Below, piece after piece: positions 1,242 to 46,767 of a stretch of 61,428 bases of DNA. The stretch spans positions 1 to 61,428 of the forward strand of contig JAMCST010000005.1 of assembly GCA_023380935.1 (NCBI GenBank). The letters are read 5' to 3'. The translations under genes were made by a program, and so were the position numbers. The notes under the pieces are model-generated. The model ran no database searches, had not been told where the DNA came from, and was given only the letters and a program-made list of their open reading frames with translations. Source of the DNA: Patescibacteria group bacterium. GTDB taxonomy: Bacteria; Patescibacteriota; Microgenomatia; UBA1406; GWC2-37-13. Position 1 is the stretch's first letter; each line of letters opens with the position of its first letter.

Positions 1242-1616
1242 ATGTTACAATTAAGATCTTTATTGACGGTAGCTGATAACACCGGCGCTAAAAAAGTGTC
1301 GATGATCGGGATGCCGGGCAAGGGGAATCGGCACTTTGCCTACCTGGGTGAGGTGATCAATGTCGTGGTCAAGGATGCTATCCCGTTTGCCCAGGTGAAA
1401 AAAAGTGACAAACTGAGCGCGGTGATTGTCCGGACCCACAAGGAAAAAAAACGCCGTGACGGCAGCTATATTCGTTTTGACGATAATGCCTGTGTGATTC
1501 TTGCGGAAAAGGGAGGCAAAGATCCGAAGGGAACCCGGATTTTCGGACCGATCGCCAAAGAAGTCAAAGACAACGGTTTTAACAAGATTGCCAGTTTAGC
1601 CGAAGAAATTTATTAA
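1242..1616 (+). CDS. rplN: 50S ribosomal protein L14
   Basis: 124 aa, full length for L14. Typical features are the LLTVADNTGAKKVSMIG start, the VRTHKEKKRRDGSYIRFDDNACVIL core and the GTRIFGPIAKEV end. L14 contacts L19 and forms an inter-subunit bridge. The gene starts nine bases after rpsQ and is followed after eight bases by rplX, consistent with one polycistronic message. Confidence 0.97.
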   Translation: MLQLRSLLTVADNTGAKKVSMIGMPGKGNRHFAYLGEVINVVVKDAIPFAQVKKSDKLSAVIVRTHKEKKRRDGSYIRFDDNACVILAEKGGKDPKGTRIFGPIAKEVKDNGFNKIASLAEEIY

Positions 1617-3945: not shown

Positions 3946-4308
3946 ATGTTTATCAAACATTTCGATAAAAAAATCAGGCGGCACCGCCGCGTCAGTTTGA
4001 ACATTCGCGGCAACGGACAACGGCCGCGTATTGCGCTGCATCGTTCTGGTCGTTATATTTACGCCCAAGCCATCGACGACGACAAACGCATGACGCTGGC
4101 GGCGTTTTCCAGTTTGAAGCTGCGCCGGGAAAAGGCGTATCAGAAAACTAAAAAAAGCGACGAAGCCCGGTTGGTCGGGCAGCGGTTGGCTGCCCTGCTG
4201 CAGGGCAAGAAGATTAGTCGGGCGGTATTTGACCGGGCCGGTTATCCCTATCTGGGCCGCGTTAAGTCGGTGGCCGAGGGAATCCGGGAAGGCAAAGTAC
4301 AAATTTAA
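3946..4308 (+). CDS. rplR: 50S ribosomal protein L18
   Basis: 120 aa. The HRRVSLNIRGNGQRPRIALHRSGRYIYAQAIDDD segment and the AVFDRAGYPYLGRVKSVAEGIREG end are diagnostic of L18, which binds 5S rRNA together with L5. It starts three bases after rplF and is followed by rpsE after 21 bases. Confidence 0.96.
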   Translation: MFIKHFDKKIRRHRRVSLNIRGNGQRPRIALHRSGRYIYAQAIDDDKRMTLAAFSSLKLRREKAYQKTKKSDEARLVGQRLAALLQGKKISRAVFDRAGYPYLGRVKSVAEGIREGKVQI

Positions 4309-44658: not shown

Positions 44659-44685
44659 GTTAATTATACAAAATATGAAATTAAC
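44659..44685. repeat. Inverted repeat in divergent promoter region
   Basis: GTTAATT and AATTAAC, seven bases each, separated by 13 bases, in the gap between the divergent genes at 44627 and 44795. It could be an operator; it is AT-rich and may be by chance. Confidence 0.3.
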
Positions 44686-44696
44686 AGGCACGCGGC

Positions 44697-44724
44697 TTGA
44701 TTTTTATCCCAAATTTGTTTTAAT
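44697..44724 (+). promoter_or_regulatory. Promoter with -35 TTGATT and extended -10 TGtTTTAAT
   Basis: TTGATT (44697-44702), 16 bases, then TTTAAT (44719-44724) preceded by TGt. It predicts a start near 44731 and a leader of about 60 bases that contains a terminator-like hairpin just before the gene. Confidence 0.45.
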
Positions 44725-44760
44725 AGGGTTAATAATTCGAGCCTGATATAGGATATGATT

Positions 44761-44794
44761 ACCTCTGTTTAGTGTCAGAGGTTTTTGCTTTTTT
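44761..44794 (+). terminator. Terminator-like hairpin directly before a start codon
   Basis: ACCTCTG (44761-44767) pairs with CAGAGGT (44776-44782) around an eight-base loop, followed by a T-rich run broken by GC and then ATG 44795. No plus-strand gene lies upstream for several kilobases, so it is more likely an attenuator in the leader than the end of another unit. A five-codon ORF (44755-44772) ends with TAG in the loop. Confidence 0.65.
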
Positions 44795-45835
44795 ATGAGT
44801 CATAAAATCGAAAGCTTACCATCGATACCCCACCTGATTACCGGAAGTCCAATTAAGATAGGGTGGGCCCATGAGGTAGGGCAACCGTTCTTAACCGGAG
44901 ATGCCGTAGTAGCGCGGGTACCGGGGGAAAAGGCAGGATTAACCGCAACAGTGGCGTCGGCGGTGATTGATGGAGTAGAAGTGGACTATCAAGCCGATGA
45001 GGGTAATCGGCCGATTTGGCCGTATCGGCCATCGAAAAAACCCGGTATAGGTGACTTTATTGTCGAGCGCCTGGGAGTAGGGTTATATAGGGAGGTTGAT
45101 CAAAGACCCGATGGCTCTTTTACTGGACCAGGATTGAATTGGCAGAGTTTACCAGCACCGGTAAGGATTGCGGTTGTGAAGGCCGCCGGTTTAGTTAGTG
45201 GCTTACGTGATTTGGGAGCGGTTCCAACTGAAGACCTTCAAGTCAGTGATACAGGTTATACCAGTGGACTTCGAACCAAAGACGGCATAGAACCGAAGTT
45301 TTACCTCAATAAGCATGATGACGATGTTTTTCGTTATGTTCAATTAATGCAGTTTTACTCCGGTTTATTTAAGCGCGCTAATGGTAAAAACGGCATTCCT
45401 TTTTTTTCTCAAGCTGGGGTAGTTGATATTATGCAAGTGAGACAGAAAACTCCAGATGATACTTTCTATTTAAGACCACGTTTAACCTCACTATACTTAG
45501 GTAATCTAGTTCCTCCCGCGGTCAGCGACGGGCAGGGACAGTGGTTTATTGATATGCTTCGGGATAACGGCCAGCGTGCTGCGGCTATCAATTTGGCCGA
45601 CGCTTACGCTAACGGATTAGTTCAACCTTTGGCTGATGGTCTCCCTTATCAGGTTATAGGCTATGGAACCTGGGCGGTTAATCTGGATCCGTTTGTTTCT
45701 GCTCATCTGAGAAAACCACGGGGTATAACTACAGTAAGCACCAGGCTTGATCTTGATAAATATAATCTAGCCAGCGATATTTGGGCGGCGGCGATGGGAA
45801 TTATGAATGTAGTTGATCTGCGTCGGGTTAAGTAG
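44795..45835 (+). CDS. Protein of unknown function
   Basis: 346 aa, soluble, no signal peptide or membrane helix. Not recognised. Conserved-looking stretches are KIGWAHEVGQPFLTGDAVVARVPG (about 21-44), YTSGLRTKDGIEPKFYLNKHDDD (about 155-177) and YGTWAVNLDPFVSAHLRKPRG (about 290-310). Base use is somewhat more AT-rich than the ribosomal genes. It sits in a block of nucleotide-related genes and has a hairpin in its leader, like the next gene. ATG 44795 is the first good start after the hairpin. Confidence 0.7.
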   Translation: MSHKIESLPSIPHLITGSPIKIGWAHEVGQPFLTGDAVVARVPGEKAGLTATVASAVIDGVEVDYQADEGNRPIWPYRPSKKPGIGDFIVERLGVGLYREVDQRPDGSFTGPGLNWQSLPAPVRIAVVKAAGLVSGLRDLGAVPTEDLQVSDTGYTSGLRTKDGIEPKFYLNKHDDDVFRYVQLMQFYSGLFKRANGKNGIPFFSQAGVVDIMQVRQKTPDDTFYLRPRLTSLYLGNLVPPAVSDGQGQWFIDMLRDNGQRAAAINLADAYANGLVQPLADGLPYQVIGYGTWAVNLDPFVSAHLRKPRGITTVSTRLDLDKYNLASDIWAAAMGIMNVVDLRRVK

Positions 45836-45862: not shown

Positions 45863-45890
45863 TTGATTTTTTTCCGGGATCGTGTACAAT
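45863..45890 (+). promoter_or_regulatory. Promoter with -35 TTGATT and -10 TACAAT for the leader ORF
   Basis: TTGATT (45863-45868), 16 bases, TACAAT (45885-45890). The predicted start is at about 45896-45898, exactly at the ATG of a 35-codon ORF, so this small ORF would be translated as a leaderless message. Confidence 0.55.
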
Positions 45891-45895
45891 AGAAT

Positions 45896-46003
45896 ATGGA
45901 ACGACAGAGAACACGATTGATCATCCGCCCACGGGCGGATTTTTGCGTTTATGGAGCATTTCCCGCCGGGCTAGGGCGGGTTTTTGGTTTATGGAACAAC
46001 TAA
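45896..46003 (+). CDS. Putative arginine-rich leader peptide (35 aa)
   Basis: Open frame of 35 codons starting MERQRTRLIIRPR. Arg occupies codons 3, 5, 7, 11 and 13, mostly CGA, AGA, CGC and CGG. The ORF begins at the predicted transcription start, runs through both hairpins (45923-45940 and 45962-45980) and stops 13 bases inside the following gene in another frame. This is the layout of an attenuation leader. A second tiny ORF, MEHFPPG (45951-45974), lies between the hairpins with its stop in the second loop. Evidence is layout only. Confidence 0.4.
   Translation: MERQRTRLIIRPRADFCVYGAFPAGLGRVFGLWNN
45923..45944 (+). terminator. Terminator-like hairpin 1 in the leader
   Basis: ATCCGCC (45923-45929) pairs with GGCGGAT (45934-45940), tetraloop CACG, followed by TTTT. 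A classic intrinsic terminator shape, placed inside the 35-codon ORF right after its Arg codons. Confidence 0.75.
45962..45985 (+). terminator. Terminator-like hairpin 2 in the leader
   Basis: CCCGCC (45962-45967) pairs with GGCGGG (45975-45980) around GGGCTAG, followed by TTTTT. The downstream gene's ATG is only ten bases after the stem. The loop holds the TAG stop of a seven-residue ORF. Confidence 0.75.
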
Positions 46004-46767
46004 GACCGAATCCGGCACAGGTTTACCATCAGCCCGGTCGTCCCGTAGAGCTGGTAACCAACGGAGCAATGAAACGGGCGGCGGCGGCCGGCGAGGGTAT
46101 TTTGGTCTCTGACAATCAGACAATGCTCCGTCGGATTGCCGGGGCCGAGGGAGTAAATCACGTGATTACGGCCAGTCGTGATGCAAACGGATTACCGTTC
46201 GTAGTTAACACAGCCATGCGTAAAGGCGCGAGCCTGGTTGATTATTTGGCCGATGCGGAACAGGAGGACGACGCTAGCCCTATTAAGGTTAAGGTGGTGA
46301 CCGATACCGGTTGGGAAGTCAATGGCCTAACCCTCAACAAACACGCCGGGGAGCAGGATAATCTTAATAAGCTGAAAGAGACGTTGGCCAATTTGCGTAA
46401 CGAAACCATTGCTTCAACTGCCGGAATCGTGGTGGTCGATCAGAACGGGATCGAGTCGGTTTATTATAGCCGTCTGATCGTCGGAAAACTAATTAATCCC
46501 CAGTTGTTGTCTGAGATGATTGACGGCAATCCCCAGCATGCGGGTGGTTTAACCACCTTGGAATTACTACGAAGCAACGCCATCATCAATGGTGGCTTGG
46601 TTGATTTCAGCCTGCATCAAGTTGATCCGACCAGTCATGAGATGGTGCCGGTTTTTGCTTCAGAGATTAAAGTGGACCTGAAAGATGAAGGCTGTATAAA
46701 ATTAATTAACGGCTTGGCCCAGGGCATTATTCCTGACGGCTTGGTGTCAACCACGGCAGTTAATTGA
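45991..46767 (+). CDS. Maf-like nucleotide pyrophosphatase, divergent
   Basis: 258 aa from ATG 45991; a TTG 16 codons upstream is unlikely as it lies in the hairpins. The middle (VVTDTGWEVNGLTLNKHAGE, then LNKLKETLANLRNETIASTAGIVVVD, about 105-150) has the order of Maf-type enzymes: ADTVV, a loop with GK, a helix ending L-x-x-L-x-x-x-T and a Tgv-strand. HAGGLTTLELL could match the later AGgY region. Maf proteins hydrolyse non-canonical or excess NTPs. The similarity is by eye and partial. HAM1-like and kinase genes nearby agree. Confidence 0.45.
   Translation: MEQLRPNPAQVYHQPGRPVELVTNGAMKRAAAAGEGILVSDNQTMLRRIAGAEGVNHVITASRDANGLPFVVNTAMRKGASLVDYLADAEQEDDASPIKVKVVTDTGWEVNGLTLNKHAGEQDNLNKLKETLANLRNETIASTAGIVVVDQNGIESVYYSRLIVGKLINPQLLSEMIDGNPQHAGGLTTLELLRSNAIINGGLVDFSLHQVDPTSHEMVPVFASEIKVDLKDEGCIKLINGLAQGIIPDGLVSTTAVN

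Follow-up and report, generated by a model that had tools for sequence, protein, structure and literature searches.

In Escherichia coli, a stop codon placed 5 bp from a terminator lowers termination from ~90% to <10%, an effect that is lost without translation (PMC4824070). The terminator of pyrBI sits within its own leader ORF (PMC4824070, PMC5021804), and amino-acid attenuators keep >20 bp between the leader stop and the terminator (PMC4824070). Mycobacteria have leaderless polycysteine uORFs (Canestrari et al. 2020, cited in PMC9031893), which, as far as the account drawn on from PMC9031893 goes, regulate downstream translation through their Cys codons. The Salmonella mgtCBR leader contains two short ORFs and alternative stem-loops that answer ATP and proline (PMC3641672).

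The leader described here precedes a gene for a Maf-fold protein in a 61,428-nucleotide stretch of DNA from a Patescibacteria genome (the window). It resembles E. coli pyrBI (pyrL) in that the leader ORF overlaps putative intrinsic terminators, T-rich stretches lie upstream (here the T-runs after hairpin 1), and the gene in the window is nucleotide-related; as in pyrBI, a closely following ribosome would, as we propose, prevent termination, with no need for an antiterminator hairpin. It departs from pyrBI in its apparently leaderless start, its basic peptides, its usual pair of hairpins with T-runs and its frequent second uORF, and its target genes are unrelated to pyrBI. We therefore describe the leader as probably working like pyrBI but do not file it as a member of the pyrBI family, because the gene downstream encodes a Maf-fold or another protein. 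With the trp, his and phe attenuators it shares a short leader ORF, hairpins, and a terminator-like element before the structural gene, whereas it has no conserved antiterminator or regulatory codons and its stops lie on the terminator rather than >20 bp away. A leaderless short ORF whose elongation speed controls a downstream gene recalls the mycobacterial polycysteine uORFs, but in the present leader the switch appears to lie in the terminators, and conservation does not extend to any single codon. The mgtCBR leader, too, combines two short ORFs with two stem-loop decisions; it differs in that its stem-loops are alternative structures, whereas here both hairpins are terminator-like and the first ORF is leaderless.

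The leader and its gene in the window

The leader elements (Table 1) are closely packed. The 5 nt between the end of the -10 hexamer and the ATG at 45896 fit a transcription start at the A of this ATG. The leader ORF (uORF1) carries Arg at codons 3, 5, 7, 11 and 13, crosses both hairpins, and stops (46001-46003) 13 nt inside the Maf-like gene; hairpin 2 with its T5 ends 5 nt upstream of the gene ATG. An earlier note on this DNA had described the promoter at the ATG, the 35-codon ORF, its Arg codons, both hairpins with T-runs and the 13-nt overlap, and all of its coordinates proved correct. The stop of the possible second uORF lies in the loop of hairpin 2, and the three ATGGA starts in the leader lie among partial direct repeats. 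Three strict hairpin+T sites occur on both strands of the whole window, and two of these are leader hairpins 1 and 2. Dinucleotide shuffles of the 155-nt gap (n=5000) produced at least one such site in 10 cases and two sites in none.

Table 1. Positions of leader features in the window, and other genes found behind the same leader.
Feature	Position or locus	Strand	Basis or remark
Promoter-like TTGATT-16-TACAAT	45863-45890	+	Consensus match
-10 hexamer TACAAT	45885-45890	+	
uORF1, leader ORF, 35 codons, MERQRTRLIIRPRADFCVYGAFPAGLGRVFGLWNN-stop	45896-46003	+	Relatives have leaderless ATGGA ORFs in the same position
Hairpin 1 + T-run, terminator-like, -12.3 kcal/mol	45923-45944 (stem-loop 45923-45940)	+	Strict hairpin+T scan, folding
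Possible uORF2, MEHFPPG-stop	45951-45974	+	Weak, single sequence; start ATGGAGCAT as in the L023 uORF
Hairpin 2, CCCGCC/GGCGGG + T5, terminator-like, -12.8 kcal/mol	45962-45985 (stem-loop 45962-45980)	+	
Downstream gene, divergent Maf-fold protein, 258 aa	45991-46767	+	
HIT proteins	L030, L046, L051		Same leader upstream
GNAT protein	L035		Same leader upstream
Protein without Pfam match	L068		Same leader upstream

The protein encoded at 45991-46767 gave no match to Pfam or NCBIfam profiles. Its AlphaFold model (pLDDT 86) was compared with PDB structures, and the 13 best matches were all Maf proteins (E 1.4e-6 to 2.4e-4), followed by Ham1; TM-scores against the PDB Maf proteins were moderate (0.40-0.57). 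The label of a nucleotide-related, Maf-like gene, given in the earlier note, is thus supported at the level of the predicted fold, and its enzyme activity is presumed. A profile search placed a homologue in 10 of the 72 genomes of the family, the window's own genome included. The aligned homologues are ~18-24% identical to the window protein, and their alignment backs the gene start at 45991. The sister species lacks the Maf-like gene, which leaves the window copy as a single sequence. Searching named genomes with the Maf-like protein found nothing, and a DNA-pattern search of named genomes gave three Microgenomates matches among unrelated ones.

The window's genome comprises 0.94 Mb (84.7% complete) and belongs to a family that includes Ca. 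Roizmanbacteria/Microgenomates; genes for Rho and EF-P are present. The analysis covered samples of ~289 kb of this genome and ~280 kb of a second one (G020). In the own-genome sample (the window and L006-L019, taking the longest ORF as the start), SD-like motifs were found at 8 of 254 starts, and -10-like hexamers were most frequent 6-9 nt upstream of the ATG. Because SD-like motifs are rare and -10-like hexamers lie mostly at this short distance, leaderless or near-leaderless starts seem to be common in this genome.

Several other places in the genome were noted in passing. Within a divergent gap, a hairpin (44761-44782) and T-run lie directly 5' of the ATG of the upstream gene (44795-45835); a leaderless-looking uORF, MKLTGTRLDFYPKFVLIGLIIRA-stop, occupies 44675-44746 ahead of the same gene, making 44675-44795 a second candidate attenuator in the window. 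Elsewhere, a hairpin and T-run shortly precede the ATG of genes for an unknown protein (L011 11908, minus strand), ribosomal protein L3 (L012 3063, minus strand) and a GNAT protein (L013 2326, plus strand), the last with a leaderless-looking uORF, MQRTLSTVSARRRISGEDSVLIE-stop. At L014 ~4160-4190 (plus strand), a tRNA-like 3' end is directly followed by CCGTTTTTTATG, so that a protein gene starts in the apparent T-run of the tRNA.

Related leaders in the family

Related leaders precede the homologues L020-L025, L027 and L028, although the proteins can barely be aligned; homologues L026 and L127 have no leader. Common to 14 leaders are the -10, a spacing of exactly 5 nt and the uORF1 ATG, which in all of them begins ATGGA. 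In the relatives, hairpin 1 and its T-run are either crossed by uORF1 or contain its stop in the loop, with the exceptions of L021, L023 and L118, which have a single terminator, and L025, where a second small ORF crosses hairpin 1. A second, Lys/Arg-rich terminal uORF is usual, for example MKRKHRYKLNLPAQKP-stop, MKHRYKLQRVLYP-stop and MKFRLKIRRELLP-stop, and is fused in frame with uORF1 in L020 and L046. Many relatives have a small hairpin at the C-terminal codons of this uORF and AGCGCA directly after its stop codon. The terminal hairpin is mostly CCCGCC/GGCGGG with a T-run, and the gene ATG usually follows within ~12 nt. In the leaders of the basic type the terminal-uORF stop falls 3-8 nt before the terminal hairpin or inside it (12 nt in L123). 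Several relatives carry the leader between a divergent Ham1 gene and the Maf-like gene, with a convergent gene downstream that is LysRS class I-like (an identity read from sequence).

Across 11 aligned cores, 99.1% of pair cells are paired, and 7 of the 11 pairs show change on both sides. The core covariation score was 0.405, against 0.094 in shuffles and <=0.03 when slid; because the alignment had been fitted to the model it is biased towards structure, but the slid controls are clear. Lys and Arg are commoner in the coding frame of the terminal uORFs than in their two alternative frames, and acidic residues are few. The residues after Met-Glu in the first ORF vary (MERQK, MELQS, MEEQV, MEEIG, MEHLH), and the relatives' first ORFs share no conserved Arg position. 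The window leader lacks the TAGAGCGCA core/linker of its relatives and does not match the covariance model (R1); by sequence comparison it is a divergent member, whose kinship rests on its anatomy and its homologous gene. Anatomy, conservation of layout, covariation and the relatives' stop positions were all read directly from the DNA, and on these grounds the layout is real and conserved, with the architecture expected of a translation-coupled attenuator.

A DNA pattern made from the leader core found the same leader before unrelated genes (Table 1). Simpler leaders, each made up of a basic uORF and a terminator, precede other genes in the Ham1-divergent slot in L118, L123 and L113, the gene in L113 being ornithine carbamoyltransferase. 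The same enzyme appears to be encoded in this gap in L131 (G048; read by eye), and in both L113 (G043) and L131 an inverted repeat, TTCCAGTA..TACTGGAA, near the leader start is perhaps a repressor site. Model R1 matched in 12 of 83 genomes of the order, all within the window's family. One weak match outside the family, among 281 genomes of the class, looks like an ordinary terminator, as do three further matches that we set aside (L066, L067, L148). As judged from these searches, credible R1 matches are confined to the window's family.

Mechanism and competing readings

We favor, as the probable reading, pyrBI-like attenuation of transcription, coupled to translation of a leaderless leader ORF. 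The earlier note had proposed translation-coupled attenuation of this type, and the layout has since been found with homologues of ~18-24% identity and before other genes, which supports the proposal. We infer the transcription start, termination and the ribosome's effect as follows. Judging from the -10 spacing, transcription would begin at the A of the uORF1 ATG, and a ribosome would engage the newly emerging 5'-terminal AUG, as the near absence of SD motifs in the genome suggests. A first ribosome close behind RNA polymerase would cover hairpin 1 and then hairpin 2, so that no terminator folds and polymerase enters the Maf-like gene; ribosomes that terminate on uORF1, 13 nt into the gene, might reinitiate at the gene's own ATG. 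A ribosome that lags behind, stalls early or never initiates would instead leave an RNA ending near 45944 or 45985. Ribosomes in E. coli have often not yet caught up with polymerase in the first ~100 bp of an ORF (PMC4824070), and the leader may therefore need a polymerase pause. The signal may be a pausing of polymerase in the T-runs that depends on nucleotides, or else slow progress of the ribosome through the basic codons.

A bolder extension would make the leaders a lineage-specific, portable Microgenomates class, in which a leaderless ORF and its basic nascent peptide form a ribosome-arrest sensor on tandem intrinsic terminators and control unrelated genes (Maf, HIT, GNAT and others) through one common signal. 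We hold this to be doubtful; the list of target genes points to no single signal.

An arrangement of the trp/his type, which we regard as improbable, would sense charged tRNA-Arg (or Lys): a ribosome stalled at basic codons would mask the 5' arm of hairpin 1, and the free 3' arm of hairpin 1 would then prevent terminator 2 by pairing with the hairpin 2 5' arm. Five Arg codons among the first 13 of uORF1, the Lys/Arg-rich terminal uORFs of relatives, a possible 5-bp GGCGG:CCGCC pairing in the window leader, and a seemingly trp-type leader elsewhere in the family (before a DAHP synthase gene, L054) all speak for it. Against it, the relevant arms of hairpins 1 and 2 scored 12.3 in their own leaders versus 12.8 when swapped between species, and 4467 of 5000 permutations were at least as good, whereas the two arms of hairpin 2 itself were better than swapped arms (3/5000 permutations). 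Hairpin 2 also still folds with the hairpin 1 5' arm removed, leader stops sit on the terminator instead of the >20 bp away typical of amino-acid attenuators (PMC4824070), and Arg positions are not conserved. pyrBI logic fits better than trp logic because stops lie on the terminal hairpin, the window ORF crosses both hairpins and the arms do not co-vary. Of the earlier note's idea that ribosome position governs the hairpins, a ribosome that blocks the terminators directly fits, but a choice between alternative hairpins lacks co-variation support. Its expectation of conservation in relatives held for the leader ORF layout and for the stems, with their covarying core, but not for the Arg codons; we accordingly rejected arginine-specific sensing, and what recurs in place of an Arg sensor is a generally Lys/Arg-rich terminal uORF.

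We give similarly little weight to the possibility that the peptide of the terminal uORF itself matters, as opposed to tRNA or pure coupling. The basic terminal uORFs of relatives, which mostly end in Pro-stop at 5-8 nt from the terminator, and a nine-codon core, MKRKHRYKL, that differs between L022 and L035 by three synonymous changes and no others would suit such a role. Yet Pro-stop is missing in L028, L113, L118 and L123, no stop codon of the window ORF falls at the terminators, the peptide cores of other members have diverged strongly, and Lys codons also arise from A-rich DNA by itself.

Least probable, and very unlikely in our judgment, is that ordinary terminators of the upstream gene (same strand in the window, no Pfam match) adjoin a leader ORF short enough to be open by chance, with the Maf-like gene expressed by read-through or in spite of the hairpins, since the upstream gene, Ham1, is divergent in most relatives, so that the hairpins there are not its terminators, no space remains for a promoter between T-run and gene ATG, and the leader ORF, spacing and stop positions are conserved.

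Two other candidates were rejected. Rfam at its gathering score reported a tRNA alone in the window, with weak sub-threshold matches in relatives and no credible riboswitch or known leader. Pairing of the small-hairpin (P2) 5' arm with the terminal-hairpin 5' arm is not kept in L022, L028 and L051 (by eye).

Aromatic leaders and significance

Two further leaders concern aromatic amino acid genes. In L054 (G028; 1466-1610, minus strand), a DAHP synthase gene follows a leaderless peptide, MKLVLQKFWFSYFYPARNGRSVM-stop, that includes FWFSYFYP. Its stop lies 27 nt before the terminator, the sole leader where that distance exceeds 20, and a 2:3 pairing folds while the 3' arm of the terminator is still missing. 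The arrangement suggests an aromatic attenuator of the trp type, carried by a Candidate Phyla Radiation genome. In L146 (G020), upstream of 5829 (minus strand), a uORF with two Trp codons (MKNYSNKNCWQKTYPRSGWLL-stop) and a terminator-like hairpin precede a TrpB-like gene (by eye), possibly a trp leader.

To our knowledge, hardly any work has addressed gene regulation in the uncultured Candidate Phyla Radiation, and the literature we searched described no attenuator for this group. If a conserved leader does tie leaderless translation to intrinsic termination, bacteria with small, nearly SD-free genomes would be using the ribosome itself as a regulator. Such leaders may also offer compact reporters for transcription-translation coupling on leaderless RNA.
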